The position numbers and the translations under genes are program-made. The notes below the pieces were generated by a model. It did no database searches, had not been told where the DNA came from, and saw only the letters and a list, made by a program, of their open reading frames with translations. Shown here one piece after another: positions 11,515-38,939 of a stretch of 64,000 bases of DNA (its first letter is position 1; the number at the start of each line of letters is the position of its first letter). The DNA comes from Tetracentron sinense (taxonomy: Eukaryota; Streptophyta; Magnoliopsida; Trochodendrales; Trochodendraceae): positions 7,526,047 through 7,590,046 of the forward strand of contig CM026570.1 of assembly GCA_015143295.1 (NCBI GenBank). The letters are read 5' to 3'.

Positions 11515-14500
11515 TTCCAAAAGGGGACGGTAGACAGCAAGTAAAAGAGCAGAAGCATACAGAGTACATGTGCTCTGTAACTGCTTTCCTTAATGATGTC
11601 TTGTCACCAAGTGCCATTAGAGTGTTTATCTGTAAGGATATTAAGAAAAGTTGTAATAGAGAATCAGAATAAACAAAAAAACTAATGTACTTTTGCACGA
11701 ACTTATTAAATAAGACCTAATCACCAAAAAATTAAAGATTTCCAACGAAACGTTAACAAAGATCTAAAGCAATAAGGTATTTTACTAACTATCACATACT
11801 TCTGAGGCATAAAGCTCAAAAGAAAGATACACCAAATTGTTACATGAATCTGATCTGAACTCTCTTTAATTACCATGATCGTAGGGATAATACCAATTAA
11901 CAGTTTGTTAGTAATCAATTAATGATGCAAAAAACACTTTTAAACTACCATGATGATATGATTTTAAAAAATGCATTATGGTGTGGGGGAATCCCTCCAT
12001 GTTTTGTAAAGATGAGAGAAATATAAGTTTTACCGTGAAGAGAGGAGATTCAATGTAACATCAAGAAGTGAAGGATGAAAATTTTATCTTCAAAGATGGT
12101 TGCAAGGATATTAAAGTTGAGAAAGTGGATTTATTTATGCTTCACTGGTTAAGTGACACACACGACCACTCCAAAGGAATTAGAAATTTAGAACCATTGA
12201 CAGTGCTGTGCATTATGTTGGCAATTTGGCATCATTCAAGAAGAATGTCAAATACACACATAGTTTTCTTCTTAGGATTTATTATATATATATATATATA
12301 TATACACTAGTTGTTTGTGCACGTGCAAGCTGATTGATTAAGCGGGTATTTTCAATATCAAATTATTGTTACGGGACATGTTGAGAATATAAAAAATTAT
12401 GAGGGTATTTTCAGTATCAAACAAAATCATGAGGGGTATTTTTTGGTATCACATTCTTGTTACGAGATGTGTTGTGAATAAAAAAATCATGGGGGAGTAT
12501 TTTGGAATCAAATTCTTGTTACAGGACGTGTTGGGAATAAAAAAAAATCATGAGGGGTATTTTCGATATCAAATTGGGAATAATAAAATCATGAGGGGTA
12601 TTTTGGGTATCAAATTCTTGGGAATAAAAAAATCATGATGAGTGTTTTTGCCTTTTGGGTATCAAATTCCTGTTACAGAACATGTATGTTAGGAACAGTG
12701 TTACAAATCTCGTTCTCGGGTTTTCATCCGGAACTTTTCTCGGGAGATTTTCAAATTTGAATTTTTTTCGGGTATTTCTCGCCTAAATCTCGGGAATGAT
12801 TAAAAGAATATATTGAAATTACAGAAAATAGTAATAAATATCACCAAGTTATAAATGTATAAAACCAACAACATTGTGTATTTCTCATGATATTTTTAAA
12901 ATCTCGCGATATATAAGGGATAAAAAGAGAATATTATATTTCTCGCAAGATTTTTTAAATATTGCAATAAAAACGGAGTTTTAAACTTTAGATGTTTTTC
13001 TCGGGAGATATTGGGTCTTTCTTGGGAGATTTGTAACAGTAGTTGGGAATAAAAAAATCATGCAAATCATGCAGAATATTTTCGGTATCAAATTCTTGCT
13101 AAGGACATGTTGAGAATAATAAAAAAATCATGAGGGGTAGTTTTGGTATAAATATCTTGTTAGGGGACGAGTTTGGAATAAAAACAATCATGAGGGGTAT
13201 TTTCGGAATTCAACTCTTGGTTGAACATTTTTGTCCTTTTGTGACAGTGCTCTTTTATATAAAGTAAATATATATAGATAGATAGATATATATTATATAT
13301 ATTTATAAGCATGAATCATCAGATTCATTTTAGTTTACCAAGAAAAGTGGGAATCCAACAGCTTCTAACATGTCATCTGACGATTCCTGCTGATATTTAC
13401 ATGTCAGCATGCATATTATGATGTAGTTGGGTGCCATACCAAAATACTTCAAAGATTTTGCATTTAAGCCGGATAACATAAGAGATGCGCTAATGACAAA
13501 GATGAAAGCAATGTAACTTAGACTCAGTCTATGGCAAAGCAAAGATGATCTGCACACTTATCACCATATATTAGGATCCATAATATAATATTGGAGCACC
13601 TCCTTGTACAATTGTAAGGCCTCTTTATAGAACTGCTGTTTTGAGTATCCAGATTTCCTTAACTTGGAAATTGCATATGCACTCTTGAGCTGCAAACAAA
13701 CAAACCAAAAATGTGTAAAAAACAATGGCCAACCAAGTCTGTTTACCTACTAACCTGGGGACTAAAGAACATAAGCATTTTATCTGCATTGTGATTTACA
13801 TATGCTATATAGAATGCCCCGGTAACTCATGATCTGTTATCTAGTTTACTTGAGAAACTTATAAGTGGTTGATATGCAATTTTAAAACAAAACACTTAAC
13901 TAAAATGACTGAATGACATATAGTTAGTTGTTCCCAGTTCCTAAGGTTGTTAAATCGTAATCGAATCGTAAAATCGTTTTAAGACCGATTCGATTCAAAT
14001 CAGGATTCAAATCGTAAATCGTAAGATTCAATCTATTTTTGAAAAAATTGTTTAAAAAGTACAAAAAACTACTAAATAAATCAGAAAAATAAAATAATCT
14101 ATTATCCAAAAGATTTCATTCATATCTATTGATAAAAGAAAGTAATGAACCTTTCATTGCATACACTACAAAAAGCGCGAATGAACTCCATAAAATGAAA
14201 AAAAAACTAATATTATTAAAGATAAATCAACAAAAATAAACTCCTATAATCATGTTGTACGAGATCAAGTATCAAAAGATTAATACAAATGAAAAGATTA
14301 ATAAAATAAACTATCAAGGGAAACTATCAAGTTTTCCCAAAATCTAACTCCATAATCATTCTTCTTCCTCCTTTCTTCCCTTTTTTTTTCTCTTTTTTTT
14401 TTTCCCCATTTCACAGCATGTCAGCAACAAAGAGAAAACTCAAATAGGGGTTTTGGCATGTCCGTAACAGAAGTTTTCTTGTTTCTTCTCTCTTCTTAAA

Positions 14501-17500
14501 AGTCATAAAAGTACCTTCAAAAAATCAAAAGAAAAAAATATTTTTTAAGTATTGGTCTGTAAAAGGGTTTCATGCTCGAATCGCCTAAATCGCAAGAATC
14601 GTACGATTTGAATCGCAAATCGTAATTAGAATCGCAAATCAAATGGGATTTACCCAATTAAGATTTTCACCTCCAATTTGAATCGTTTTGCTTGAGATTC
14701 GAATCAAATCGTAAGATTTGAATCGCAAATCGTAAAGATTTAACAACCATGAAATTTAAAAAATCAGGTTTACTACACACTAACAGTTATATAGAGAGCA
14801 CATAAGAAGCAAGAGATTCATCTAAGCAATAGAGGAAAGTGTATGAGGCTATAAGCACCAGCATTTGGAAATTAACGCTGATTAAAAAATTCCCTCAACC
14901 GATCAAAGTCATACCTCTAAAATGACGTCATTCTTTGTTCTTCTCCAACCATTTCTTGTGAACCATCTGATTCAGAAATTATCATAAGTCGATATAAAGT
15001 GACAATTTCTACACTCTAATCCCAAGAAGTATGGGGAAATATACCATTCACAAAGAAGAATGCCTCTTGGTTGTGCAACTCAAGAATAACTAATAACAAA
15101 TAAAAAGAAGAGCTAAAGAGATCACTATACAAGGGAAAAGCACATTAAGTATGCAGGCAACATAAGAAGCAAAGAAGTCCTTCAGCATTTTTCATGAAAA
15201 TGGTCTAAAGAATAAGCAATCCTTAGATTTGTCCTTTTCTTCTCCTTTCTAGGTAAGGAACAGCAAAGAACCTTGGCTCATCCAGCACAATAAATAACTG
15301 TACTTTTAACTCATCTAAGTGCCTCTAAGATGCAACATATAATTAAACGAGCAAATATCAAAGAAGTTTTATTTGCTTCACTCAAGTTAAAGGTTTTGGA
15401 TATCATGTTTGAAATGAAATATTGCAATGGACTTAGATTTACATGATTTCCCTATTTATTACTTAACCTCTAAACTTCTTTAGAACCATAAAATTTTCTG
15501 AATTTCATCGTCTAAATTGAATGCACATAGACCACCTATAAACCAAAGCTAGACATAGTAATACTAAACAGAACTTTACCTCATAATCAAAGAACTATTT
15601 TTTGTTCTTTTTTAACTTAAGAATGCGAATGAAAATGTTGATGTACTAACAAAATAGGATAGATAAACACACACAAACACATGGGCGGAGCCAAGGGCCT
15701 AGGCAGGGGCAGAGCCAGGATTTTCTAGTAGGGTAGTCACCCATGGTTGATTGAAAATAGTAGTAATTGTTGATGGATTGTGTGGAGAAAGATTAGGTGA
15801 GTACAAACTATTATGAGTCTAGCGGGATGGGGTTCAAGAGCATTACCCCGGAAAAAAAAATTGACAACTTTTTTCTCGAGTTGTTTCATCCATACATTTT
15901 GCACATAATCTTATGAGTATTGTTTCTCCTTACTTACAAGGCAATTGTCCCCTTGCCTCATAGCTATTCAAAAGTTCAGGAGACAATTGCCCTCTTGCCC
16001 CACAGTTATGTCATATTAAATAATGTAGTATTTATTTTTTGGGGGGACAACTACCCCCTTGTCCTATGATTATGCCCAATTAAATACTTAAACAACTTAA
16101 TATAAAAAAATTCTGAGTCCAAATCCTGTCGAATTACGATTGAATTCATACAATTCAATCACATTTACATAGCCCCCCTTTAACTCTGGTTAAGAACTTT
16201 TAACCCTTGGGGTTAATTTTTTTCTAAAAAAGAAAGGTTAGATAGTTGAAACCTAAGGGTTAGTAAATCTTAACCATAATTAATGCGGGGTCAAAAGGGA
16301 TACGTGTGGGCCGAGTTCAATCAAATATGATCCCAACTCAAAAAATATGTTTTCCCCCACAGTTTGGGCCTTGGGGAGCACCTGCCCCCATTCCCATGTT
16401 ATACCCTAAAAAATATATATATAGTTTTTCAAAAGTTGAGTGGGAGCACGTGCCCCCACCTGACTCCACCCCTGGGCATGTACCCCTCTGAACTTTAGAA
16501 AAACACATTAAAAAATTTATATAAGGAATATCATAGGCATGGAGTAATGCCCCTTTGGACTTTTGAAAAAATAAGGCATAGGCATGGGGCAGTGCCACAT
16601 GGGACTTTTGAAAAATAAGGCATAGTCATGGGGCATGGGATAGTGGCATAGTTACCAAACCCCTGTATTATACCCATATACTTTTAGAGGGGTCGCCATT
16701 TAAAACAGCGTACTTTTGTAGTGTTACGTATAATATGCGTTTTATACACGAATTTTGTATTAAACGCGTTCAATACGCGTATTTTTGTCGTACTTTTACC
16801 ATGTTAGACACATTCCGTATTAAATGATTGTTATTAGTTAATATCATGATTTTTATTTATTTATAATTATTAATTATTTTTTAATTTTCTCATACTTTTG
16901 TCGTATAACACCCGTACTTCCCAAATAAATCTTTTGTCGTATTATACCCGTATCCGTACTTGGTAACTACGGGTAGCTGACCCTTGAACTTTTGAAAACA
17001 AAAAGATATTTTATACCATGTTGTTTAATCATTTAATGGGGCATAATTTTGGGACAAGGGGCCAGGGGGCAGTTGTCCCCCTGAACTTTTGAAAAAAATT
17101 AGGGCATAGCCATTGGGCAAGGGGGGCCAGAACTTTTGAAAACAAAATATATTTTTTATATTATGTTATTTAATTATTTAACAGGGGATAACCATAGGAC
17201 AAGGAGATAGCTGCCCCCGTAAACAAGGAGAAACAATACCCATAGGATATGTAGTATGGAAGAAATAGCCCATGAACTTAGTTGTCAAATCCCCCTAGAC
17301 CCAAAATATTTCGTACCCGCCTAATCATTCTCCACAAATTCATGAACAACTACTAATATTTTCAATCAACCATTGTGTCCCCCCCCTCCCAACAATAAAA
17401 TCCTAGATCCTCCCCTGCACACACACAAGCATATATATACTAATTATAAAAATCCAAAAAGAATTAAATTAATATATCTCATATGCAGATTATACAAATC

Positions 17501-20500
17501 GGGATTAATAAATTTCTTACACAGACATGTTTATATTTTATACTTTATACATACATATATGTGTGAGTAATGTATGTACGACTGCTTGTATGTATGTATA
17601 TAGAGTAATATCTCTCTCTTTCTTATTATTATTATTAGTAGTAGTAGTAGTAGTATTGTTATTGTTACTGTTATAATTGTTATTATATATATTGCACTTA
17701 GAACATTAAAACTAACTATTTGATATGTCCTCTCAAGAATCAATAATAGATTTGATGCTTCAACACTTCAGTGAAATTTTTTTAAATAGCAGTGAAAAAG
17801 TGCAGTGGATACAATATCATATTTCAGCAATTTGCATTATTGATAACTGCATTTCTTTTACATGCTGTGTTAAAGTGATTCTGAGGATAAAGAGGTCTTT
17901 AGGTATAAACTGCTGTATCTATGATGCTTGTCTCAGACCATAGATCTAAGGACCAACATGGTTCCAGTTAACAATTTTCTTTTTATAAAAAGTTATGTGT
18001 TAGAATAGAGGATGTTGTTCTCATATTTACTGAAGCCCAAAGCAATTTCCAGCATGTAAGAATGCAGGTAAGGTAAGAGTTCAGAACACAAAGGAGCAGA
18101 GAAAAAAGGACAAGGCCAAAACTGGATCCTTGGTTGATGACGCAGTTACTTTGTGATGACATAGGCATTTATGACTTTTCAGTAGTTTCTTTTCCATCAG
18201 TCATAAATAATTCAAAAGAGTTTAAATAGGTTATGAATGGACAAGGGGTAGTCGATTTTGTAAGTGAGAATATCTTTAAATAGTTAGACAAGGGCCCTGG
18301 GACATCTTTAAATACAAGGGCCCTGAGACAGGGCCTTATCTTTGTTTTGGCTGTTTGGCTCATTTCCATTATTAATTCAGGATGGCCATCAGGCGGGATT
18401 CAGGAAAGGTCACCCATCAGGCATCAGCGGGCTGTAGTGCTCTGAAGTCTGATCATGTCGTTACAAAAGATCGCAAGCTTCTTTCCCAAAAAAATATATC
18501 ATTTTCTGGGACTTCCAGATCGGCGAACGACCTTGCCACCTTGGCCAAGGAGGGGGTTGGAAGGGACAGTCTATGGTTTGATCACTCCCCTCCTCGAGGC
18601 TTTTTTTCTTCTTTTGCTTCCTTTTCCTTCCCTTTGCAGCTTTTTAGATTACAGCCTTCCTTGTTAAGGAAGATCTTTTTTGCTTTCGTTGTACTCCTTT
18701 TTGATAGGTTGTAATATATCTCCCTCATCTTTACTATTATAATGCGAGAGGCATGCGTAGATGATTTTTCCAAAATTCCCAAATTACCCTTATATGAAAA
18801 CAAAATATTGTTTTAATGTTTTACTTTAATTCCCAAACTACCCTTGCCTTTGATTTAATGTTTTACTTTAATTCCTAAACTACCCCTTGCCATCTATCTA
18901 TTTAGAATCACAGCCTAATTGACCTCAGGGAGACTTCAATCACAACCGTGGGTTAACACGTGCCCCTATTAATTCCTATTAACTGTGGTTAACTCCTTCC
19001 CCTCGCTCTCACGTGCATTGCACATGCCACTAGCGAGTTCAATCGGGTGTCATTAACTCCTTCCCCTCGCTCTCACGTGCATCGCACGTGCCACCCGCTA
19101 GTTACTGATTAAAAAGAGAACTTTAAATTACATAGAAAGGATTACCTTATGCTATGTTTGGTTTTTTTTTTTTTTGATCGGTAAAAGCGATATTATAATA
19201 GAAGGAAGATTCACAAAATATGAATCCCCAAGGGACAATACAACTACTACATGAAAGTGAAACAACTAAAACAATAGAACCTCTCCCCTACCCCAACTAC
19301 GAAATAAGCTCATCAAACCCTAGCTCCACCAAATCACATTTAGTGGAGACCCAGTCACGCAACAACGCACGCGAGCGAGAGCATACTCTGTCCAGAGGCG
19401 TAACAGAGTTCTCAAAAACCCGCCGGTTCCGCTCTTTCCACAAAGACCATGATACCACCCCTGGGAGAAATAACCATACAAGATCCACCGGACTATCGAG
19501 CGAAACGGCTCTAATACAATTCTTAGCTGTGTTTTGTCCAATTTTCTTTTCTTTTCCATGTTTTTATTTATTTTCTCGACAACCAAACATAGGATTAAGG
19601 TTTTAACTTTTACATATGAAGTTCTCAATGGGATAACAACATAAGAAGGTATTTTTTCTTGAATAAAATAGAAGGTTCAATATCAATATATGAAGTCTTC
19701 AGTGATTTCAAGTCTAAATAGTGCAAATTCCCTCAAGGCTACCTAGTTCGGAGCCTTGAGGCTGAGGCAACTGTTGGCATTATCTCTATTAAGGTGGGAC
19801 AAGGGGTACTTGCTTTTACAAGCCGATAGAACAGAAGCAGGAGCAAAGGAGGATGTTCTTGCTCTACTAAAAAGGGTTATTGCTTGGGTTCCACTGTCAG
19901 CAATGTGAATCAAGGTGAATCAACTAAGCTCTATCACATGGCCATAGGGAGATGTTGTCCCCCATCTGCACATCCAACAAGAAAATCATTTAACTGCTCC
20001 ATGCAACATTGACAAAACCAAAACGGCAGACTTATTCTAGAACACACACGATAAATTAGGAAAGAATTGGTCAATTGTAACTCCCATTGTGATTTTGGGA
20101 TTTTATTTAGATCTCAAATACCTTTTTTTAATGAGAATTCCTCCGAATTGATCAGCAGAAGAAAAAGAAAGAATTCCTTCAACAAGTTGCAGAGCATTTA
20201 CAATGGATCTACTAGCTGGACTAAGTTCGACATAAAAAGTTTCATACTTTGCATGTTATTCTTGTGTTTAATAATATTATTTAATAGAATAACTTCAACA
20301 TTAGCCCTAAAAAACAGCATTCAGATTAAAATTATAAGTGTACATTGAATCTTCATTGTGGTAATGATATTTTTTTAATCGATAATCATGCAGAATATAT
20401 TTAATGAAAGAGAAAGTGACAGGACCATGAAAGCAATAAAAACTAGAGTTTACAAGCATATAAACTCAGAGCCAATAAAAGCAAAACTCATTCATGACCT

Positions 20501-23294
20501 CCCACTCTCCTAGCCAAACTAGTGGGGCAGCCCATACTGATGCGGGGCGAAAAAATTAAAACAACACCTCCCTAAGATCCTCCCCTGCGTAACGTAATGA
20601 TATTGACTTCACATAAATCAATAAATGTTAAGATCTAGTAAGAACTAGTAAAAATTGACATAAATTGATCAAGATCAGTTGCTTTTTAGGCTTATTTATC
20701 TTACTCTAGTCTGGTCAAATGTCAACTTACTGTTGAAATACAACGGAGAACCACTTAATCTAACCAACCTTTTCCAAAATGAGATGGGTTCACGAGGTGC
20801 ATATGGCTCATAAACGATTCCAGGACTTAACATGGACACATTCAAAGCCCCCTACAAACATGAAATCATAAGAAGTATCATCATTGTTGGATCACTTGAA
20901 CCAAAATAAAGATAATAAGCACATGATTAATTTATTGAGGGTGCAAACAATGCACATTAGTAAAATCAAGTACACCAAAAGATGTAAATTATGCTCTGCA
21001 AGCATGGTGCATTACTTATATTAAAAGGCCCAACCTATTAAAATGATTTGCTTTGTAGTTGCACCAATTGAACTTCCGCTATAAATTACTACACCCAACT
21101 CCAACTACAACAGACACTTCTATCATGAATACATATTTTCATGAAGCGCAAAACATATTAAACATCAGGTTTGTGAAGCCAGGTCAATAAAGAACTATGA
21201 ACCATGTTTTTCTAGCTTATAAATTTTTGAGTTGCTACAATATTAAAGTGTGAGACATACAGACATATGAAAGCCCCTAGGATTTAGATGCTCTTATGGA
21301 ACTCCAAAATCAACTTTCATGGAATAAGTTTTTTTTTTCTTACTAAGAAAATTTTGATATGGGAGTCCGGAGTCCTCTTCGCTCCAAAGGAAGTAATTGC
21401 TGAAAAAATATAAGTTACAATCCATAATCTGACTTCTTAATTGCATATTGAACACGCTTATGACTAGCAAATAAGCGTACATCCTTCATCCTTGACCACA
21501 CCATCAGAGCCAAATAGATATGCCATTGTTCCAGTTTAGTTTTTGGGACTATACAAATGTTATATTGACCCAAATGCAAGCAGGGATGGTACTAAATAAA
21601 GTTTTTGGATGAAAGAATCCAATTATGCGAATGTTGTTCCATGGGAACTCCCAAGAACAATGTTCGTGAAATCAAACTCAAGAATGTCAAGAACAATGCA
21701 CATATGGCAATTGGATGCCCATTGATATTTCAGCACAGACTAGCGCCAAATGCCCACTTGGTAAGAAGAGAAGAGAAATGGTTCACGTGATATCTAGGAA
21801 CTTGTTGCTCTTCCTGCAAGGAGTTCCCATTGAAACTACCAATTATCGGATGCAAGTGAATATATACCTTGAAGTATAAGATAAATGGATTGATCTAGGA
21901 AATGTAGAGAATATTCTCAAACTTATGGCTTGGACTATCAAGAGTTTTGAATCTTTTGTGAAGTTGAACTGTTGAAGACTGTACTAATGATTCACTCAAT
22001 TGTGACTAAAAAAACTTCATAACAACCTCAATGAACTTGACAAATGCTTCTCTTGACTTTAAAATGAGGAGGTAGACGTATCTAAACCGCCAATTTGCCA
22101 TTGTCCCAGATTCAAGGGAAGCATGGCAAGGTATTATGGCTTTCATGCGCTATAGATTGGTAGAAGTGATTTAGAACTTTATATGTTCTTTGTTCAGGAG
22201 GGTCAATTAAGTGTTACCACAGTTTGGGTATCACAAGTGAAGTTTTTTATCATATGGTATTTGTGAGAAGTAAGACCAGTATTTCAATCATCATCCATTA
22301 GGATGATGATGATATAATAATGATTAGTGACCGCAATCCTTTATGTGGCTTCAGTGCTCCAAGTTATCAAAGCACCACATGCGCAACGTAAGTTACTCTG
22401 ATAATCATGAAATTCATCGAGTCATTCCTAATAGCTTTATCAAACATATCCAAGGATGGAAGGTTGAAACTTTCATTTTTTCCTGAATTGTTCGGAAACT
22501 AGCTCCTTCGCTATTTGTGGGGTTCGAGAAAAGAAGGGAACAACTGTATTTTCGATAATAATTATGGTGCTACAGATTTGGTGGAGAGGAGAATTAAACC
22601 CTTACTAATGTCCTTGGTCCTCGAAGATATTAAAGGGCTCAAACATTTCAATTATCTATCTGATTAGCATGTCATAGTCCATGGCAATCCACAGTTGTAC
22701 GATTCTGTATGGCCTCTAGTATTTTAACAGTCTCAACCCTTTTTTTTTAGCAATTATGGATTTTTCACTTTTCAACCCCCTTTCGTTTTTTTTATAATCG
22801 ATCAAACCCTTCGTTTTAAAAATTCTTCATCCCTACCTACCAAGAAAAAATCATGAACTTATCTTAAACGCAAAAGTGTGCAAAGAGTCCCCAATGCAAG
22901 AAGTCCAATGCAAAAAAGGGGTTCTAATATAGGCTTGTAAGGGGTGACCTGTGGATTATGAATAGCCACCCCTTTTTTTTGCAGTACAGTAGAACTGTAG
23001 AGGTGTCCGCCATAGTTCTAAAACTCGGTAACTCGACTCGAAACTCGGCCGAGTCAACTTGACTTGACCAGGTTTCAAGCTAACTCACATTAAAAACTCA
23101 GAAATGCCACTTAAAAGCGAATTTCTTGGTCGACTCGCCCGAGTTAAGTAACATTTTTTAAAAAAAAAAATCTTATCAATGTGTGAAACAGAAGGGGAAG
23201 GGGTTTTAGGACACAACAGTCTCGCTCCCAAACCCCCACCCTCTCGTTCCTCTCGGCAATCGACAACTGGCAACCTTTTTCCGGTAATCAGAGG

Positions 23295-23364
<70 letters not shown>

Positions 23365-25169
23365 CAGATACAACACACAACGTGTTGCATGTAGGAACTT
23401 TAGTCTTCTCTCGATATATAATTATGTGTATAATGTATAAAATAATTATTCATTAGTGAGTTATATATTTCATTTTAGGCATATTTTATCATTAATTTTG
23501 AATTTATTCCATATATAGTATTAGAAAAATATATATTTATTCGAGTTTTAGAGGTCAAAACTCGGTCGAGTCAAGGCCGAGTTTTCGAGTCAACTCTACT
23601 CGCCAACGTTTCGAGTCGAGTCGGGTTTCGGGTTTTAAAACACCCTCCGAGCGATAGGAATTCCCTAAACGAGTTGTCACCTAGGCGATGCCTTGATTAC
23701 CAAAATTCCTTTTAGTTATCAGATTTTTAACTAAGTAGTGAAGTAATGAAAACAAATAGACATGAAAAGACAAAATAGTTTAGTGGATTAGTGCAAACGA
23801 AAAGGGTAAAAGGACAGATATCGAACAAGAGAGAGAGAGGGGGAGAAAAATGCAAAAACCATCACCAAAATTCCATGAAATCCTATAATTTCTTCTTTTC
23901 ATTTTAATTTGTTTGACATTTTTTGAGAACCATTTGAATCAAGTCTTAATATGATTATATCCCCCCCCCCCCCCCCCCCCCTCCTCCAATATTAAGTGAA
24001 ATCTATTTTATTTTTCCTTAATTCCTCATTTGTAAATAACTTCTAACTGTTTATGTCACTCGTTCATTAGAACTAGACTTCACCACCCAGGCGCCACTTG
24101 AAGACCACATCTTAATAAGCACCTACGTAGACCCTGATGCAGTCGCTACAGATCCTGACTAGGCGACAATTTGACTACAATGTATTTGTTGTCGACTTTA
24201 TATCAATTTCAAACCTTCTAGGCTCTTATATTTTTATGGGGGGGGGGGGTTTACAAAAGTTGATGAACTAGAGGGGAAGGATATGTACCATTTGTCGTGC
24301 TTGAGGAGGTGCTTTCACTTGTGTACTTAACGACCTTCTGTCCTTCAAGGAGATTGATAACTCTGCAGTCTAAAACAAAAATGAAAAAGGCATTGATGAG
24401 TAAAATAGAAAAACACTTGAGCATTATAGGCAGTCTTAGAGAGATTGGAAAAAGGAGGGGGAGGAACATTAGGCACAAAAACTAATAAATTGACATGCTT
24501 CTAGCCTCAAAAGCAATTCTCAATGGCAAATGAAGAGATAAATGAACAAAATAAACAGCATCCCATATGAGCAAGTAGAAATTACCCGGATGCAGCTTAT
24601 ATGAGCCATATGGCTCATGTAAGCCACGTCGCACTTACATGTAAACAAAGCTGTTACAGGAACAGATATATTGGTGAATTTTATTTTGAGCTCTGGGTAG
24701 TTACCATTGTAGATCGAATCAGCTTTGTGTTTCTATGGATCGAAGGATAACTGCTGTGGCCCTTGCATGACCAGGTAGAAATGCTCCAGTAACTAACTCT
24801 AGGAACTGATCATATAAACAGATAAATCAATCGATCAAATCTACAAAACCCTTGTGTCGTAATCCATCATTCAAATCGGACCAATTAGATTCAAAAAAAC
24901 TATTAAAATATTTCCAAAACCAACAACAACAAAGTGATGGAAAACCAGATTAGATTGCCTCTCAAAAGTAATTCACCTTTCACGTCAAAGTTCGAGTAGC
25001 CTCTTGAGCTTCCAATCCTACATATTCATATAATATCAACAGATTTAAGAAATTAAACCGCAAAAAGTTCTACATGCAGATATGAAATATTTGATTACCA
25101 ATATGAAAATTCTCGAATTTCGACTGATCGATAGAGATTTCGAATCGTCTGTAATCGTCCGAAAGCCAT
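6273..25169 (-). CDS. Mitochondrial Tim44-like / mL45-like protein, 11 exons, 261 aa
   Basis: Exons on the minus strand: 25169-25099, 25017-24977, 24650-24586, 20851-20769, 14966-14915, 13689-13600, 11629-11561, 11386-11285, 10397-10329, 8949-8893 and 6359-6273 (stop TAG 6275-6273). They total 786 nt with every junction in phase. The protein starts [14 protein letters not shown], an Arg-rich, acid-poor presequence of mitochondrial type. It then has [90 protein letters not shown] and [11 protein letters not shown]. This is the plant 'Tim44-related' family, whose C-terminal fold is shared with ribosomal mL45 and yeast Mba1. A role at the inner membrane or mitoribosome is inferred from that kinship. 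The intron after exon 8 starts with GC (GCAAGT) rather than GT. Exon 3 is the least certain: splice sites and phase fit, but its residues are not conserved ones I know. The last intron holds an antisense LINE; other introns hold MITEs and a Helitron. Confidence 0.9.
6740..8297 (+). mobile_element. Degenerate LINE (L1-type) 3' part in the last intron of the Tim44-like gene
   Basis: Frameshifted pieces of a non-LTR reverse transcriptase read on the plus strand. They include [20 protein letters not shown], then (another frame) [20 protein letters not shown], then [20 protein letters not shown] and [16 protein letters not shown]. The zf-RVT region with its Cys/His-type motif lies near 7730-7830. 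The copy ends in a short A-run at 8290-8297, the expected LINE tail. It is antisense to the host gene, 5'-truncated and broken by stops, so inactive. Confidence 0.85.
8824..8842. repeat. (TA)n microsatellite
   Basis: Pure TA tract in intron 10 of the Tim44-like gene, just beyond the exon ending at 8893. Confidence 0.9.
11480..11511. repeat. (AT)n microsatellite
   Basis: Sixteen AT units in the 174-bp intron between exons 7 and 8 of the Tim44-like gene. They create spurious TYR-ILE open frames on both strands. Confidence 0.95.
12340..13245. repeat. Degenerate minisatellite, about 60-bp unit, interrupted by a hAT-like element
   Basis: About ten diverged copies of a unit carry GGAATAAAAAAATCATGAGG, GGTATTTTCGGTATCAAATT and CTTGTTACGGGACGTGTTG in order. 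The array is split at 12696-13041 by a foldback element; copies resume immediately after it. It lies in intron 6 of the Tim44-like gene. The 79-codon open frame at 12399-12638 is only the repeat read through. Confidence 0.8.
12696..13041. mobile_element. hAT-like foldback element (word TCTCGGGAGAT), 8-bp duplication
   Basis: The ends are CAGTGTTACAAATCTCG and GGGAGATTTGTAACAGTA, in inverted orientation. The interior repeats a word around CTCGGGAGATTT and TCTCGCGA on both strands. Flanks are GTTAGGAA (12688-12695) and GTTGGGAA (13042-13049), an 8-bp duplication with one change, typical of hAT elements. It sits inside the minisatellite in intron 6. Confidence 0.7.
13942..14751. mobile_element. 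hAT-like foldback element (word GATTTGAATCGTAA)
   Basis: The left end TAAGGTTGTTAAATCG matches the reverse complement of the right end GATTTAACAACCATG. Both flanking halves, about 120 and 190 bp, consist of forward and inverted copies of AATCGTAA, GATTCGATT and TTTGAATCGCAAATCG. The centre is AT-rich unique DNA. It lies in intron 5 of the Tim44-like gene, between exons at 14915 and 13689. No preserved target duplication was found. Confidence 0.65.
15680..17370. mobile_element. Cluster of old TE remnants in intron 4
   Basis: The stretch starts with GGGCGGAGCCAAGG and GGCAGAGCCAGG, a sequence typical of the ends of dispersed plant elements. It then holds repeated AACTTTTGAAAA and 'GGGGCA...GTGCCCC' segments, each followed by 'GGGCATAG'. 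Embedded in it are a foldback MITE (about 16148-16325, with the CTTAACC/GGTTAAG word) and the hAT-like element at 16647-16971. No reverse transcriptase or transposase frame was recognised. Confidence 0.5.
16647..16971. mobile_element. hAT-like foldback element (word TTTTGTCGTA)
   Basis: The ends CATAGTTACCAA and TTGGTAACTACG are inverted repeats. The interior reiterates TTTTGTCGTA, GTATTATACCCGTA and TACGCGTA in both orientations around an AT-rich core. Flanking octamers GATAGTGG and GGTAGCTG agree at five of eight positions, so any duplication has decayed. It lies in intron 4 of the Tim44-like gene. Confidence 0.65.
17600..17660. repeat. Trinucleotide microsatellite (ATT/AGT)n
   Basis: ATT repeats followed by AGT repeats, in intron 4 of the Tim44-like gene. 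There is no coding role. Confidence 0.85.
18728..19101 (+). mobile_element. Non-autonomous Helitron with duplicated 3' end
   Basis: The element starts TCTTTACTATTATAATGCG after a host A. It ends CCACCCGCTAG before a host T, the A/T insertion and CTRR terminus of Helitrons. Eleven bases before the end is a perfect 7-bp stem hairpin, CACGTGC-ATC-GCACGTG (19074-19090). The 3' terminal unit (TTAACTCCTTCCCCTCGC plus hairpin plus CTAG) is present twice in a row; the inner copy ends near 19034 with a degraded hairpin. It is 374 bp, with no coding content, in intron 4 of the Tim44-like gene. Confidence 0.8.
19150..19592 (-). mobile_element. LINE 3' fragment nested in a MITE
   Basis: The minus strand encodes a LINE C-terminal piece: [34 protein letters not shown] and [20 protein letters not shown]. 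It ends in an A-tail seen as a T-run at about 19162-19175. Outside it lie the arms of a MITE: CTATGTTTGGTT at 19152 and AACCAAACATAGG near 19582, with the long right arm from about 19520. A related MITE without the LINE is at 57214-57364. The LINE therefore appears to have inserted into the MITE. Confidence 0.7.
19620..20760. other. Intron 4 of the Tim44-like gene, no feature recognised
   Basis: AT-rich sequence with no transposon ends I can name. The 93-codon frame at 20067-20348 has no recognisable motif and no coding support. Confidence 0.4.
20870..23000. other. Intron 3 of the Tim44-like gene, unidentified sequence
   Basis: No intact frame, RNA gene or transposon terminus was recognised. 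The part at about 22060-22720 on the plus strand has short frame-shifted peptide-like pieces that suggest an old retroelement, but I could not match them to a domain. Confidence 0.3.
23011..23645. mobile_element. hAT-like foldback element (word AACTCGGCCGAGT) with internal (TC)n
   Basis: The left end CATAGTTCTAAAACTCGG faces the right end CGGGTTTTAAAACACCC. Both sides are rich in ACTCGG, CGAGTC and AACTCGGCCGAGT in both orientations. Flanking octamers agree poorly, so target duplication is not demonstrated. It lies in intron 3 of the Tim44-like gene and contains the long TC microsatellite. Confidence 0.6.
23297..23362. repeat. (TC)n microsatellite, about 33 units
   Basis: A perfect dinucleotide tract of about 65 bp, likely polymorphic between individuals. 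It is embedded in the foldback element of intron 3. Confidence 0.95.
23961..23982. repeat. Poly(C) tract
   Basis: More than 20 consecutive C within intron 3; a poly(G) run follows at about 24238-24250. Such runs can also be assembly or sequencing weak points. Confidence 0.9.
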
Positions 25170-27500: not shown

Positions 27501-27665
27501 TGTTGAAAGAAACGTGTTGGCTGGTAGATGCGATTGAACTCTCAATGGTTGCAATGATGTAAAAATATTGGCAAATAAAAAATGAATATTTAATAGAAAT
27601 AGAGAAGGAATAAGGAGTAGGGTTGGAGTTGCAACGAGAAAAAAGTGGCTTTCTATTTTAGTAAA

Positions 27666-27863: not shown

Positions 27864-28107
27864 TAGTAAACTCTCTATTTTATGGTAAAAATCGGGAAAT
27901 TTTAGAAACAGGACTGGAGATGCTCTAACTTCTAAGAGCATTCCTGACAGCCAAAAGGTTATTCTAGTGAGCCAAATGGCTAAAAAGTACTAAAAACTCT
28001 CTCCGACAGCCTCACCAAAACTCAACAAAATAAAGATTTGGGTTTAGTGAGTGTACAATATTCACCAAACTTGGTGAGTGCTGGACACTTACCAAAGCTA
28101 AAATTTA

Positions 28108-29365: not shown

Positions 29366-30287
29366 TAAAATTTATCTTTTCCTCCTATTTGTGGGCCCAC
29401 ACAAATAACAAAATAAAGGTTTCTCTCTCCATTCCCTTATTGTGGTCCCACACAAATAATAAAATAATGTTTCACTTTCTATTCTTTTTTTGTTTTCCGA
29501 CATAAATAATAAAATATTATTTTTCTTTTCTTTTTTTTTGTTAAAATGGTGAAGCTGTTGAAAGTGTTTTAAAAAAGTGGCTAAGAGCATTCCTAGCAGC
29601 CTCATCAAATTCGCCTCACCAAAATAGCCAAAACTCACAAAAAGTGAGTTTGGTAAGCCACTTTTTTAAAACACCCCCAGCAGCCTTATCAAAATAGCTA
29701 AAATTATCATTATTTTATTATTTGTGTCACATCCACACAAAAAAAGGAAGAGAGAAAATTATATTTTATTTGTGTGGGCCCATAAACAAGGAGGGAAAGA
29801 GAGAATTTTTTGGTTTGGTGAGTGTACAGTGACTCATCAACATTGGTGAGTACTATACACTCACCAAACTGAAATATGCAAATTGGTGAGGCTGCTGGAG
29901 AGAGTATTTCATACTTTTTAGCCTATTAGCTCACCAAAATAGCTAAAAAACTATTTTGATGAGGCTGCTAGGATTAATCTAACCAAAATAATTTTTTGTG
30001 AGTTTTTGACTATTTTGAAGAGTAAAATTTGGTGAGGCTATTAGGAATGCTGAGAGGGATGATTCTTAGTAAATTTCGTCCGTCGAAGTAAGGTATCTCC
30101 TCAATACGTAAGCGCATCTCACGCAGTGCGTATCCTAGAAGGCATATCCGCCTTAGAGTACATTCTCTCTATCCCGACATTTTTCAGCTCCTGATTATCA
30201 TTTACCGGTACCATTCGTCTGTAACTCACAATCCGCTCCAAAAGAAAACCCTAATAATAGATCTCTCTGAATATAATCCCTTATTCC

Positions 30288-31712: not shown

Positions 31713-32559
31713 TCAAAACTTGATCTCAAGATAATAAAGGTTTAGACTTCATTGGATCCTTCTCTGTCTCTCTCTGTCTCTCTCATGGGTTTCTCTTTGC
31801 AAGTGTTTATTGGCAATTTCTGGTGATGATTATTTGGTCCCTTTAGTTGATATATAATGTAAATATCTGTTTGTATATCTTAAGCAATCGTACCCATGAT
31901 ATAATTCATTCTCATGTACTTCATCTGATTTGAATACCTCATGTAGTCTAAGATTTCCTTATGATAGTACTTGCTGATAATTGCTGTTGCATGTGATTGT
32001 TTGTTGATATCTGCTCATTAGGCTGTGTTTTAGGATACTGAATTGGATGTTTTTGACAACTTTTTACATGATTTTTAGTTTTTGGGATGAAGTTCATGTA
32101 AAATTCTACGATCAGGTTCTTTCATCCATTTGTTTGCACTTTTTGTGCGTTAGCATTGTTATGGGTTATGCTTACATTTGCCCAATATTACTTTCTCATT
32201 GGAGAATTATTTGTCGACAAAGGATAGATATTCTTCTTATGCATTTACACTAGAGCTGATCTGTTTTTTTCGTAAAATAAAGAATGCTTATGATGGAAGA
32301 TTTCAATGCAAATCGTAATTCGTTTTGAAGTGTTTTGTTTTCTCTTACAAGTAATTTGTTCTCAGTGTTAGTCACCAACTGATTCCACCTGCAGTGGCGA
32401 ACTATTATCATTGATACTCATTCATCAGGCATTTTGACTGTGTATAATATTGCCTTTGATTCCAACAGAAGTTTTTTTTTCTTCAATAAAGTGTTTGTAA
32501 ATTCAACTTATATAGTACATTATCATTATTATTATTTGATAGGTACCATTTAAAGAATA

Positions 32560-34190
32560 TGAGAAAAAAACGAGGGATAGAAAAGGTGACCTGGACTAAA
32601 GATGCCCTGAGGCAATATAGCTAGAATTCTAACAATACTGTCCTAATTCTTAACATCCCCGATGCCGAATTGTCAGCTGTGAGCTGACTCCTTTGTCGAT
32701 TTGAGATCCAAGAGAACGAGACAGGAGACATCCCTTTATGACACCAAATTTGGTGAATTTCTCTGATGGCATAAGCATATCTCCAAGGACTGCGAAAGAC
32801 GCCCACTGCCCAACTTGTGGCGTTCCTTGAATCACCTTCTACAATTTAGGAAGATCCAATGCCACAACTCCAAAAGGTTAGTTATTATAGAGAATGGGGA
32901 TTGGAACACTCCAAGGCCACAATGTGCGTCGTTGAGACGGGTTTGGGAAGTAACAGATGCTATCTCAATCCTCCATGGGCAACATTCGGATCGTATCGTT
33001 TGGACGGAGACCGCGAAAGGTGGGTTTTCTCTCAAGTCGACATGGAGCAAGCTCTATGCTGAAAATCTTAGAGTTGCTTGGGTGAATCTGATCTTAGAGT
33101 TGCTTGGGTGAATCTGATCTGCCTTCCGTGATGCCTTATTAATTCAAGACCACCTTCTTAGGAGGAGCCTTATCCGTACGACTTCTTGTGTGTTCTATTG
33201 GCGGCACATTGAGAACATAGAGCATATTTTCTTTCGATGTCAGTACTCGCTGTAGGTCTGACTTGCTATTCTTGGACGTTGTGGATCCTCTAGGTGGCGA
33301 GCTAAATCGTGGAGGTCGGAGGTTGCTTGGCTCTTGGCCCACTTTAGGGGGCCCGACATCAAACAACAAATCAAGAGAGTCTCTCTATGTGCGTCCATCT
33401 ATCATTTGTGGTGTGAGCGAAATTGCCGTATTCTCCAAAACTCTTTCCTTCCGCCCCAGAGTATCACGACTATGATTATAAATGACACGCAAATGCGATT
33501 TCGGGGAGTGAACTCCCCTGTCCTGGACACAGCAGCCTCCAGGTCCTTTTTTAGTGCATGGGCTATTGATGTGGGCTTTGTTAACCTGCCGACTGTATGG
33601 TGCAAGTGGATGGCCCCTCCAGCTGGTTTTTGGTGCCTTAACTCTGATGGGTTGGTCCGAAGTACGGTGGCGGGCTTAGGGTGTGTTCTTTGCAACCAAC
33701 TCAGGGAAGCTTTGATTGGCGCCGCTTGTGGTACTCTTCCGGCCCCTATTGTGGTCGTGGAGCTTATGACCATTAAGAGGGGGCTGGTTGAGGCTCAGTC
33801 TCGGGAATTAGAAAACTTGTTATCCAATATGACTCCAAGGGTGCCGTTGTTTGCATTAAGGGCCTGGTTGAATGGCCTTGGGCTGCATACCATTGCCTTC
33901 TTGAGATCACTTCTCTGATGCAGAGTTTTGAAAGCGTTAATGTTGATCATGTCTTTAGAGAAACTAACGAGTTTGCAAATTTTTTATCCACCTTTTGTAA
34001 TTGTATAGAGGAGGTTTGTCTAACCCCATTGGAGTTCCCTAGCGTGCTTTCTCGCTTTGTTGAGGAGGACGATAGGGGTTGTAATTATGCTCGCTTGTGG
34101 ATCTTTCCTTTTTATATAATTTTCCTTTTTCCGAATTTTTTTTTAGGAAGATCCATAAAACTGGAAAGGGTGTGACGGTGCCCTTGTCTC
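32560..34190 (+). mobile_element. Degenerate LINE 3' part with RNase H domain
   Basis: Frame-shifted coding pieces on the plus strand: SDRIVWTETAKGGFSLKSTW (zf-RVT lead), a Cys/His-type segment near 33190-33240, then the RNase H region. The latter has GFWCLNSDG (first Asp near 33650), VVELMTIKRGLVEA (catalytic Glu region near 33760), and after a frameshift ESVNVDHVFRETNEFANFL (last conserved block, 33925-33985). Broken by stops, so inactive. It follows the BSD gene by about 850 bp. Confidence 0.8.
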
Positions 34191-34329
34191 AAGAGAACCT
34201 TGGCTTGATCCGAAGTCCGAAGTCTAAACTCACTTCACCCATGGGGCCTCAAATACCTGAGCATAATATTGGCTTTGCTATATCTAATTGTCCTTGCTGA
34301 TACCTGCTGGAGCCTGGATTACCCAAAGA

Positions 34330-36060
34330 GCTACCATCAAAATTCTGCTTGAAGGAACCACTTGGGGTAGGATTCCAAGCATCCATGTTATAATGAGGTG
34401 TAGACATGGCAGTTAAAATTTCAATATTGATTATGTCATTGCTTTTCCCTCCTATGAGTGAAGGAAAATTGACGACCTGTCATTGCCCGAGCTTTGATTT
34501 TGTCTATAATAGAGATATCTTAGTGCTTTACCATCGAATATCCTATTATTTTTCTCCTCCCAGATCAACCAAACAATAGAGTGCAGGGAAATTCTTCACA
34601 GGAATTTTCACTTGGTAGTTAAAAGTCAGCTCTTCACTGAAACTTGTGATGTCATTGGGAAACACCTATGAGTGATTTGCAAGAGCAAGGAAATGATTCA
34701 AATGCCAGTATGCGACAAGCAACATTGTAATGGATGAACACGTGGCTCTTAGACTCCATCCTAGGTGCACGTAAACAAATATGAGGAGATAGATGGTTGT
34801 TTTTCCGTCTTCTCTGCAGCATGTTGCAAGTGTTAATCTTGTTATGGGTAAGCGTCCTGGGCCCTTTGCAAACATTTTGACTTTGGAGGCACAATGGTTC
34901 CAATTTGACTTCTGAGGAGAGATGGTTATCTTCTCTCTGTTGCCAACTATTTTATTGGAAAAATAATTTGTTATAAACTAACATTGGAATTAGGATACTA
35001 TTTTCTTGAACACGTTCATATTGATAAATACAAACATCTTTTAAGAAAACAAATAGGTCTGAGAGCTTTTCTACTTCCACAGATAAGGGGTCTACAAAGT
35101 ACAAAGTTAAGCCAGAAGGAGAGAGATTTACCAAGTCCAAGATGGAACAATTTTGAGATTGCCAAGGTTAAAGAGATGAAGAACAAAACATGGAGAGATT
35201 CACTCCACCATGCTTCTTCTCAAAGTTTAATCTCATTACCCATACCAAAACATCCATTATAGTAAAGGAGAATAAAAGACAATGAGGTTAACACGTTCTA
35301 AATGTCGCGTGTGTATATATATATACTTAAGGGGAGAATCTCTATTACCATCTTCCCATGAGGGCCAAATTTCTCTCTTTGAGCCAGCCGATGTGCAAAT
35401 CCCCTTCAATCTCAGGTGTTGTTGCCACCTCCCAACTTACCAAATGATCCTTCTTGGTACATCGGTTACCTCATAAAAAGTTCCTTTGCATTTTCAAGCT
35501 TCTTTCTAACTCTATGCGGCATCTTGAATAGGGATATATAGTAAACTGCCATGTTTTTTAAGGTAGACTTTGTTCTATTTTATTTTAATAAGACTAATGC
35601 ATATATAAGAGGAAGGAAAAAGTACGGCGAACGTCGTCACCGATGAGTGAATAGGAAAAGCAAAAAAACATACATCAAAATAAATAAAAATAGATAATCT
35701 ACCATACAAAAAAGGATCATGGAATCCACGCCCCATAAAATCGCTCCTAGCTAAACTCCAATCCCTCATCTCGTCATTATAGGATGTATCAGCGAAATCC
35801 TTCAGTTCCTCTCTTTCCAAACCTCCAACAGATGACACTGGACATAAACTACAGAATTGCATGAATATCCATTGGATCTCACAGGAAACAACTGGAGAAT
35901 ATATCTTAAGAGAGAATGTACTACCAATAAACAAGATAGAAAGTGGCCCCATATCTTGCTAACCAGAGGATAGTGACATAACAAATGACTTGCAGACTCC
36001 TCATCGGCCATGCATAAGTAATACCTATTTGCCAGTCTCAACCTCTAAACTTCAAGTGAC
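34330..36060 (-). mobile_element. Minus-strand LINE fragments (two zf-RVT regions)
   Basis: Minus-strand peptides INTCNMLQRRRKNNHLSPHI and CLRAPRMESKSHVFIHYNVA at about 34690-34860 are zf-RVT. A second fragment at about 35740-36041 has LANRYYLCMADEESASHLLC, HYPLVSKIWGHFL and VWKERN. These are two separate or rearranged LINE 3' ends. The stretch between them (about 34930-35560) shows nothing recognisable. Confidence 0.65.
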
Positions 36061-36449
36061 CACGAGTGAGAATTTTATCTAGGTATGTTGTCTAGAGGAA
36101 AAAAGTGATCTTGGACGAAATGCTCGGATTCCCCACTAGTTTGTTACGAAAGGGAATGCCCGTTCTGGAGTTCAGAGCTCTATGGAAAGATCTAACCACG
36201 AAGAAGCCCTTACTATATCTAGACCACTATTGCCTATCCTTTAATTCCGGGTTGGGAAGGGTTCACTGCGAGATACACCCTACGAGACTGATATAATCCC
36301 CCATCACATAATAATCATTTAGATCCCTCCTCATTAGGGGACTTCAAGATGATATCTCATTACAGACCTCAAGGTATGATGTTGTTGAGCATTTTTGTTT
36401 AAAAGCTATTGAAAATATGTTGCCAAATTGGTTCCTAAGACTGGTGGAC

Positions 36450-37290
36450 AAAGTTGAGACGTGATTTGAATGATTGAGAAATAGATGACATGGGTTGTTT
36501 GTTTGAGAGTCTTAGCACTTTAGACCAGTGTTCTCAAGGCAATGATCATAGGATTTGGTCTTGAGGCAACAATGGCCAATTTTCAATGATATCATTGCTA
36601 TAGTCTTACAACTTGGTCCGTTTAATCCCATTTCCTCATAAGTGTGTGTGGAAATTGGATATTTCCTCCAAGGTATCCTTCTTCCTATGGAATGCTTCTT
36701 TGAAGTTTGAACAAGATTCTCACTTGTAACCACTTGAAAAAGAGAGGATGGAGAATGTCTAACCATTGTTTTTTGTGTCTGCATGTGGAAGAGACAGTGA
36801 ACCACTTACTTTTGCATTGTCTTATTGTGTTTGAGATTTTGAGGTATATCCTTTCTCGTGTAGGTGTGGATTGAGTCTTTTCTTCTTCATTTTTTTAACT
36901 TATTATTTTGTTGGTCTATGGTCGGTGTGGATAGTGCTCGGGGGCATTTTGGTCATTTCTTCATGGAGCCATATCATGTTTGATCTGAAAAGAGAGGAAC
37001 AATTGAGTGGTTGAGGACTCGCTCTCCCCTCCCTCCGGTGTTTGTTCACTCATAAAACTGCTAATTTTGGAGTGGTACTCAGTTCGGGGAGCAGGAGTGG
37101 ATTTGGGTGAGCTGTTAAGATCAGTCTGTTTTTAGCTAGTAGTGGGGGGGAGGGGGGGCTGTTAGTAAAAGGGATTTCTGTTTGTTCTTTGTATCGTTTT
37201 CAAAGTTTACTTGCTTGTAAACTCCTTATTGCTTGTAACTTTGTATCTGAGTTCCTTTTTTCATATAATGTTTTGCTTACCGATTAAAAA
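36450..37290 (+). mobile_element. Plus-strand LINE 3' fragment
   Basis: The zf-RVT region at about 36740-36840 reads SNHCFLCLHVEETVNHLLLH and then CLIVFEIL. It is followed by a long GT-rich 3' UTR resembling that of the LINE at 6740-8297 (both run through CTTGCTTGTAA-type and TTTTGCTTACCGATTAAAAA-type sequence), ending in an A-run near 37290. It is degenerate. Confidence 0.65.
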
Positions 37291-37299
37291 ATGGCTGGT

Positions 37300-38560
37300 G
37301 GATCCACACCAGCAGTCCTCCCAAAAGAGGACATCTTCACCTGACTGCAATGCAAAAGATATGTGCTCACTGAACTTTCTTTTCCCCCTTATTATCGCTT
37401 TCCATGGACTTTTCCCATGAGGGGATTGAAGGTTTCAAATGCAACTTAATGAGAGTTACTCTGCTTTTCAATGATTCTTCCAAACAGTTGCATTTGTAAA
37501 TTTGAGCGAGTATACCGCTCTAATACGATTATGGTTCCGAATTCCTTGTTCATTAAGTAGTAGTAAAATGATTATATTTTATGTTGCATTTGTAAGTTTC
37601 ACCCACCTCACTCAACTGCACGCAATCGGCTTTCAAACAAGTGTCCATTCTCTTACAGTCTTCATAATCATTTTTGCATCAAGGTAAATGGTTATACATC
37701 TTACAACAGGGGTACGAGGCATTTAAAATTTGACGATTTAAAAAAAAAATTACGGTGCATTATGCTCTGCCATCATAACAAATTTCCTCTTTATCATTCC
37801 TCCAAACTCAAGGCTTTGTTTTCAACAATGGGCTAGTATTTCTTCCTTTTCTATCACACCTGTCAGTTCTAGCTGTCCCCGGTTCTCATTTATTTCATTA
37901 TCTCTTTATGTTATTCTTGTCTCTGTTTCTATTCCATGCTCTATGAGTTTCTTGCATGTCTTTCATTCTTTTACCACTCGTTGGCAGTGGTAGAAGGATG
38001 CAGTTTCAAGTTTTGAACCTTCTCCCCTTACTGCTAAATAGCTTAATGGCAATCGGGAATTTTCTTTGTTTTAATCCGACATGTTTCAATTTCACTGAAA
38101 TGGAATTATTTGAACGGGGTGACATTAGGCACCTGGTGGAGATGTGTTACTGTCACTTTCTTACGTGGAAAAGTATATTTCCTTGCTGCTAGAATGACAG
38201 CAGGCTAGGTTTCCTTTGCTACCATGTGTGATTTATATAATATTTAACTTCCAGGAAGAGAGGATTTCATACATTATGCAGAATGTGACATGAGATTCCA
38301 GAGTCCATTTGTAAATAGGCACATATCAACTGGAGGAGAGACTATATTTGATTCTTTTTAGTTCATGGTGTTTGTATTTTAAGTGGGTGTAAGTTTGGAA
38401 AGGAAACTATGGGAGTAAATGCTGTTCTTTTTCAGAAGGGCTGGAAGAATAGCAGGTCTCTTATGCTATGACATAAAATGCTTGTACAAAGTTTAGCTGG
38501 TAGATCCTTTTTCTTTATAAGCAGAGGAGCTATTATTGACAAGAAAGGAAAGGAAATTAG
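37300..38560. other. Intergenic, nothing recognised
   Basis: AT-rich DNA between LINE debris and a MITE. Small open frames here show no motif. Confidence 0.4.
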
Positions 38561-38574
38561 GATGCACTGATTGG

Positions 38575-38925
38575 CATAGTTACCAAGTCGGGGTTCGCGA
38601 ATAATTTGTCTAGGAAAAAGTTCAGAAAAAATCGTCAAAATCCGGAAAATTTGGAAATAAATCGGGAAAATGTCGGGTAAGAAATGAAAAGAATACAAAA
38701 TAAGATTACTAATTATGAAAGGTTTAAACAAATATATTTCATATATTCGATATATGTTCAGGACTTTTTCAAAAAATCTTAGAATAATTCGTGTTTAATT
38801 CGCGACTTTTTAAGAAGTTACTATTTTCCCAAAACTTGTGAATACTTCGTGAATTAATTGTTCGACGAAAAAGTTGGGTATTATTTGAGATTTTTTGACA
38901 AAATTCGGAGTACTTGGTAACTATG
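38575..38925. mobile_element. hAT-like foldback element, perfect 8-bp duplication
   Basis: The ends CATAGTTACCAAGT and ACTTGGTAACTATG are exact 14-bp inverted repeats. CTGATTGG is repeated exactly at 38567-38574 and 38926-38933. The interior reiterates words such as AAATCGGGAAAATGTCGG and AATTCGCGA. This 351-bp element is the best-preserved member of the family and fixes its class as hAT-like (8-bp duplication). Confidence 0.85.
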
Positions 38926-38939
38926 CTGATTGGTTATCT

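Follow-up and report, generated by a model that had tools for sequence, protein, structure and literature searches.

The locus considered here, a 64,000-bp stretch of the Tetracentron sinense genome (GenBank assembly GCA_015143295.1, contig CM026570.1, positions 7,526,047 to 7,590,046 of the forward strand; hereafter the window), holds six short elements, named A to F, and raises the question of how elements with related ends come to be filled with different CG-containing words. An earlier note had described them as one family of hAT-like foldback elements, the interiors of which do not align, and had suggested that their words multiplied separately in each lineage. The reading favoured here, to which we give a probability of roughly 0.68, is that these are hAT miniature inverted-repeat transposable elements (MITEs), that the words are putative transposase sites, and that in A, C and F the positions of the sites were kept and their letters changed in concert. 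What is observed in the DNA comprises the copies, their ends, the 8-bp duplications, the words, the CpG scaffold and the letter differences. The elements and their duplications are as follows.

1 to 203, reverse strand: element B, with its right end TAGGGCTGTAAACGG at 203 and ATCCGA/TCCGAATTCGG words, the excess of which is reached in 0-2 of 300 shuffles; a degenerate left end lies at about 20.
12688 to 12695: left duplication of A, GTTAGGAA.
12696 to 13041, forward strand: element A, a hAT-type MITE of 346 bp, with family ends CAGTGTTACAAATCTC / CACTGTTACAAATCTC and the word TCTCGGGAGA.
13042 to 13049: right duplication of A, GTTGGGAA, a 7/8 match to the left one.
13942 to 14751, forward strand: element D, a MITE of 810 bp, with family ends CAAGGTTGTTAAATCG / CATGGTTGTTAAATCC, AATCGTA at both ends and an AT-rich middle.
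16647 to 16971, reverse strand: element C, a MITE of 325 bp, with ends CATAGTTACCAA, words ACCCGTA / TACG and a 5/8 duplication in the window; it runs opposite to the scaffold that A and F follow.
23011 to 23645, forward strand: element E, a MITE of 635 bp, with family ends CATAGTTTTAAAACTCG / CAGTGTTTTAAAACCCG and the word ACTCGG.
38567 to 38574: left duplication of F, CTGATTGG.
38575 to 38925, forward strand: element F, a MITE of 351 bp, with ends CATAGTTACCAAGT and sites that are mostly TTCG / ATCG, in pairs spaced by 11 bp.
38926 to 38933: right duplication of F, CTGATTGG, exact.

Copies of the elements were searched for in the genome (1.16 Gb, 1479 contigs), using the best 40 candidates per element out of first-look candidates numbering 2214 for A, 2222 for C, 1804 for D, 1644 for E and 3220 for F. 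From these best 40 candidates, at least 40 genome matches each were obtained for A, C, D and F, and at least 60 for E. Ninety-one copies were examined (8 of A, 30 of C, 30 of F, 10 of D and 13 of E, including the window's own A, C and F), with both ends recognisable in 88 of them, the exceptions being L036, L054 and L080. Two pairs among them, L025/L033 and L068/L069, are not independent, as their flanks are near-identical. Consensuses were derived from 8 copies of A, 29 of C, 29 of F, 10 of D and 12 of E, chosen from the listed matches, and B was represented by its window copy; of the other elements compared, G was represented by two copies, H and J by one each, and I by one of two (G, H and I are described below). 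A, C and F have consensuses of equal length, 349 bp, and that of E is 459 bp. A CT microsatellite (window 23300-23360) lies within the window copy of E and helps it to exceed the consensus length. The elements measure 325-810 bp and contain no open reading frame (ORF) of at least 130 aa, A, C and F being too short to hold one, and none of the ORFs of at least 110 aa in the copy loci and the window matched either of two hAT-like patterns. A, C, D, E and F, each found with many copies in its own genome at the coordinates which the earlier note had assigned, are high-copy, short, non-coding hAT-type MITE families.

The assignment to hAT comes from the duplications and the ends. An 8-bp duplication of at least 7/8 flanks 67 of the 88 bounded copies, compared with 6 of 1902 control pairings in which the left and right flanks came from different copies, and it is exact in 43 of the 88 compared with 2 of the 1902. 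No excess was found in the 88 bounded copies at lengths of 5-7, 9 or 10 bp, and the mean match is 0.81-0.92 in the 8-bp register and 0.20-0.33 in the 9-bp register, supporting the earlier view of the 8-bp duplications as a hAT mark. Among the window copies, the duplication is exact in F (CTGATTGG), 7/8 in A (GTTAGGAA/GTTGGGAA) and 5/8 in C, and none was recognised by eye for D and E; a duplication of at least 7/8 is present in 8 of 10 other D copies and 11 of 12 other bounded E copies. When exact 8-bp repeats bounding matching ends were sought throughout the window, F alone of the six elements was recovered, plus three unrelated matches. VANDALs are MULEs and have duplications of about 9 bp; assignment of the elements to this group was rejected, given the unmatched 9-bp register and the matched 8-bp register.

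The ends of C and F are identical over CATAGTTACCAA (12 bp). Those of A have the form CAGTGTTACAAATC, those of D the form CA[AT]GGTTGTTAAATC and those of E the form CA[TG][AT]GTTTTAAAAC, and the only part common to A, D and E is CANNGTT followed by an A-rich stretch. Termini of hAT elements start with CA (or TA), and a CANNGTT-like end form is a link to hAT; the CANNGTT ends of A, C, D, E and F together with the 8-bp duplications therefore give a hAT pattern in these five. The terminus of B is TAGGG (TAGGGCTGTAAACGG). The earlier description of six elements with related ends thus stands for the five with CANNGTT, long identity being limited to C and F, and does not extend to B; a single family of six with one terminus was rejected on the same evidence. 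A possible second copy of B, with an TAGGGCTGTAAAC start, was noticed at L015, where the far end was not seen. Judged by eye, the inverted match at the termini is limited to about 12-17 bp and the words inside are scattered, while in foldback elements long inverted terminal repeats form most of the element, so the foldback label was abandoned.

The words themselves were examined by counting the top CG words (k 6-8) against 300 dinucleotide shuffles. They are over-represented in the consensuses of A, D and E and in the window copy of B, where 0-3 of 300 shuffles reach the count, and borderline in C, where 35, 4 and 10 of 300 do so at k 6-8. A different repeated CG word in each element, as first claimed, is clear in A, B, D and E and borderline in C, but the word of F is unsupported as an exact repeat. 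The commonest non-CG words of E likewise lie above most shuffles (7-14/300). Among the nine representatives compared, an exact word is hardly met outside the family to which it belongs. In 12 of the 18 ends listed, the first CG falls at position 14 or 15 (0-based), showing that the word continues the terminus, as the earlier note had proposed to check. Each of A, C, F, D and G has one end whose CGs include 14/15, 20/21 and 32/33, and an opposite end that differs; B has the same 6 + 11 CG spacing, 3 bp nearer the tip. Such a layout is compatible with fingers that a transposase assembly would hold at set places. The hAT ends, the 8-bp duplications and the family words beginning just inside the tip are as expected of transposase sub-terminal sites, the part of the earlier suggestion that held, and, judged from sequence, the CG words are probably transposase binding sites.

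The families A, C and F differ from the rest in how their CpGs are arranged. In their copies, CpG pairs 11 bp apart, taken against neighbouring distances, give ratios of 7.4 (A), 7.1 (C) and 6.6 (F); D and E give 1.4 and 1.5, flanking DNA (197 kb) gives 1.45, and the remainder of the window gives 0.58. The 11-bp spacing is a property of pairs and does not extend into a long, regular array. Since the three families have a scaffold in common, the pooled figure (38 pairs vs 10.5 expected) was not counted as independent evidence. A, F and reversed C are collinear, and unreversed C shows no CpG agreement with the others. Between A and F, 15 of 17 CpGs lie within 2 bp of each other, which is reached by 0/326 rotations and 0/5000 gap shuffles, and without the terminal 40 bp, 11 of 12 still do (0/326 and 2/5000). 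Against reversed C, the corresponding counts are 13 of 17 for A (0/326 rotations, 61/5000 gap shuffles) and 18 of 24 for F (0/326 and 14/5000). In the three-way comparison, F and reversed C both have a CpG no more than 2 bp away from 12 of the 17 CpGs of A, a number reached by 0 of 12,544 offset pairs (5 to 60 bp), with a maximum of 10; three of the 12 sites fall in two CGCG pairs. Half-samples of the copies gave 7 to 9 three-way sites out of 13 to 16. Global alignment without 17 bp at each end gave z values of 3.6 for A and F, 3.5 for A and reversed C, and 5.3 for C and reversed F, each reached by 0/200 shuffles, compared with 56, 109 and 22 of 200 shuffles for A-F, A-C and C-F in the opposite orientations. 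In global alignments, the shared aligned CpGs numbered 10, 13 and 16 in the scaffold orientations vs 7, 7 and 4 in the opposite ones. The statement that the interiors do not align therefore fails for A, C and F, with matched CpG positions and interior alignments above shuffles.

A shared scaffold could also arise if A, C and F were ordinary hAT MITE families with their own subterminal repeats, which converged on the geometry of the transpososome rather than inheriting it. Different hAT transposases bind different subterminal motifs, and the 14/15, 20/21, 32/33 layout in one end each of D and G, together with the 6 + 11 spacing in B, would fit such convergence. However, the consensuses of A, C and F are equal in length at 349 bp, their interior alignments exceed shuffles, and the coincidence between A and F continues beyond the terminal 40 bp. 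Convergence without common descent is thus considered rather unlikely, although it deserves to be taken seriously.

Consensus CG is kept at only 0.57-0.68 in the copies of A, C and F vs 0.84-0.91 for other dinucleotides, and the losses are mainly to CA and TG, the pattern that methylated CpG would produce. CG nevertheless ranks first of the 16 dinucleotides for positional coincidence in all three family comparisons (z 4.8, 3.0 and 3.3). Over all CpGs, the letter immediately before CG (−1) is mostly T in families F (21 of 24) and A (12 of 17) and mostly A in family C (20 of 29); the one before it (−2) is C in 11 of 17 cases in A, 3 of 24 in F and 5 of 29 in C, and T in 11 of 24 in F and 19 of 29 in C. 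For a comparison in place, 14 matched sites (14 in A, 13 in F, 11 in C) were hand-picked from the three-way position list, leaving out the A CpG at 36, which has no partner, and those at 214 and 270, which belong to CGCG pairs from which 212 and 272 were kept. At these sites, family F always has T at −1 (13 of 13), family A mostly T (11 of 14) and family C mostly A (9 of 11), and a C at −2 occurs at 10 of 14 sites of family A, 0 of 13 of F and 1 of 11 of C, giving Fisher values of 4e-5 (F-C) and 1.5e-4 (A-F). Taking 214 and 270 in place of 212 and 272 gave 2e-5 (F-C) and 6e-4 (A-F). One such site reads GTTTTTCTCGGG in A, GTATTATTCGGG in F and GTATTATACGAG in C. The earlier idea that the words multiplied separately in each lineage does not hold for A, C and F, where the CpG positions are matched and the neighbouring letters differ in place.

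That idea has a mechanistic counterpart, namely slippage or tandem duplication of the terminus in each lineage, with no selection on position and with the coincidences as by-products. Short 11-bp tandem stretches in C, and the words of E and D, which are dense repeats adjoining the tip, are what such a process could leave. It accounts poorly for positions that coincide in A, F and reversed C over 349 bp, for site contexts that vary within a family, and for the fact that CG, the most mutable dinucleotide, is the best-kept position. Slippage is accordingly disfavoured for A, C and F and may apply to D, E, B, G, H and I; as an explanation of the whole pattern it seems very improbable.

Four parts of the favoured reading of kept positions and changed letters are inferred: a transposase as the binder, selection that keeps the positions, likeness by descent, and co-evolution of letters and protein. 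In the mechanism proposed, the DNA-binding finger of each family's hAT transposase would bind the CG-containing subterminal words, and binding of the sites as a set by the transposase assembly would account for their fixed distances from the tip. A, reversed C and F would descend from one 349-bp element, and, as the specificity of the transposase shifted, the letters before each CG would have followed at many sites while the positions stayed.

Published passages on comparable systems provide partial parallels. The maize Ac transposase binds subterminal AAACGG hexamers (PMC3260210). The Ac/Ds system resembles the families here in its 8-bp duplications, its short ends and its several copies of a short CG word near the tips, and some Ds classes likewise share little with Ac beyond the ends and a few words; it differs in having one word per system, and the passages on Ac/Ds present no sister families with the same positions and different letters. 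The BED finger of Hermes binds AAGT together with neighbouring AT-rich DNA; the two ends of the element are asymmetric, the first two sites, STR1 and STR2, are found within bp 11-27 and are read by BED fingers, and cleavage is severely impaired by a shift of 1 bp (PMC10368747). The elements here resemble Hermes in their putative finger sites, which start at about bp 15, in exact phasing, in AT-rich surroundings and in left/right asymmetry, whereas Hermes, as described in that source, is an autonomous insect element with the word AAGT/AAGC and with 17 and 14 occurrences of its motif in the ends. The motif CGATTCAT of Herves and the motifs AAACCC/TGACCC of Tag1 are transposase-bound (PMC3143072), and again each hAT transposase has its own short repeated subterminal motif, although the cases described are single elements with other motifs. 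DNA-binding domains derived from hATs often prefer CGG or CGC with varying specificity, and the motifs of four hAT proteins find high-scoring matches within subterminal sequence (PMC8097297). These CGG-binding domesticated hATs differ from the present case in that the relevant part of PMC8097297 names no plant protein and does not examine the evolution of whole site sets.

Several results weigh against the reading of kept positions with changed letters. The coincidence of CA between A and F is nearly as strong as that of CG (z 4.6), and the letter difference at matched CGs weakens to a chi-square p of 0.014 when both sides are counted, although counting both sides of all CpGs gives p 2.4e-5. 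Away from the ends, the agreement with reversed C is modest for both A (9/12; 14/326 rotations, 175/5000 gap shuffles) and F (13/19; 13/326, 102/5000), and at 1-bp tolerance F and reversed C agree at 9/24, which is not significant (37/326 rotations). The best raw offset between C and reversed F is +20 and not 0 (14 vs 9 of 29). Control pairs in the global alignments are mildly high (F-E reversed 4/200, D-E reversed 7/200), and in local alignments, C-F (z 5.5) and A-C (3.4) stand beside A-F (2.6), which is not singled out, and E-G (7.0). The E-G interior similarity consists of AT-rich stretches and was dropped. A free three-way MAFFT alignment has long gaps and retains CG in all rows at 6 columns only, spacing periodograms are mostly not significant (P 0.093 for A, 0.181 for C, 0.043 for F), and the top CG words of F are not over-represented (69, 168 and 41 of 300 shuffles at k 6-8). 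In Ac/Ds, some Ds1 elements that lack AAACGG are nevertheless mobile, and some elements that carry it are immobile (PMC3260210). In addition, the Hermes authors consider extra transposases at sites farther inside the ends unlikely in cells (PMC10368747), and many sites here lie 50-200 bp inside, suggesting that these deep sites may need another reading.

One such reading is that the words are bound not by a transposase but by a transposon-encoded or host anti-silencing or chromatin protein similar to VANC. On this view, as with VANC proteins and VANDAL elements, the motifs of related elements would have diverged so that demethylation by each protein is directed at its own family. The targets of VANC are short repeated non-coding motifs that differ between related elements (PMC5735166). 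The VANDAL/VANC system of Arabidopsis, as set out in passages of that paper, resembles the present case in having related transposon families with diverged short motifs matched to related proteins, and differs from it in its tandem motif arrays in non-coding regions, its anti-silencing protein and its motifs, e.g., YAGTATTAY (PMC5735166). The deep internal sites fit this alternative better than a Hermes-like assembly, and the words contain CG, the decay of which to CA and TG in the copies fits methylation. However, the words start right inside the tip and the two ends are laid out differently, as in the ends of Hermes. Binding by a VANC-like protein is thus regarded as quite unlikely.

The elements are ordinary in kind, being hAT MITEs with subterminal words, and the unusual feature is the A/C/F scaffold with its changed letters. 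It is tentatively proposed, with somewhat less than even confidence, that A, C and F form a natural series of specificity switches on one scaffold fixed by geometry. In such a series, roughly a dozen or more dispersed sites may each have changed the same one or two letters along with the recognition code, a suggestion that is held just as tentatively. If true, sister MITE families would be separately addressable despite nearly identical tips, which could explain how related MITE families of one genome avoid a common transposase. The series would address the open question of how a recognition code can change when many dispersed sites must follow, since it would offer three ready-made states of one system with many copies each and would predict the letters read by each transposase. 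No match to the six end sequences was found in the main texts of the literature searched, and among the papers listed in topical searches no title or abstract beginning describes sister families with matched sites and different letters.

A scan of the copy loci for exact 8-bp repeats at matching ends gave 14 matches, among which three further families, G, H and I, each with its own CG word, were taken up. Of the remaining matches, one each is a copy of A, E and C, and the others look like chance.

G, L032:1877-3113 and L042:1926-2918: CATGGTTCAAAATATCGG-type ends, words GTATCGG/GATACG, exact 8-bp duplications, 993-1237 bp.
H, L015:92-558: CAGTGTAGTCAAGGCG ends, words CGCCTAGGCG / CGCCTAGGCGA, exact 8-bp duplication.
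I, L045:267-868 and L048:247-938: CTAAGTAACCAAAGCGGG / CTTAGTAACCC ends, word GAGCGGGAGC.

These families add further word classes, and the earlier note had named many word classes with one terminus as support for its view, but the terminus is loose and not single. In family I, a near-tandem run of the word is longer in L048 than in L045. At L026:1383-2904, a copy of C lies inside a possible larger element with CATGGTTG ends and the 8-bp repeat GCCCTAAG.

The window contains other features beside these families. Degenerate repeats around aatcatgaggggtattttcggtatcaaattcttgttac were seen by eye on both sides of A (window 12400-13230). Several long inverted repeats, with arms of up to 187 nt that are 88% complementary, lie at 54553-56024, and a CpG-poor unit of 1334 bp with TTAACTCATGGTTT ends and TTTGCAAA on both sides lies at 54622-55955. 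An open frame of 839 aa at 59733-62252 carries FAR1, MULE and SWIM domains, a domain set which we take to be that of FAR1/FHY3-type genes derived from MULE transposases.

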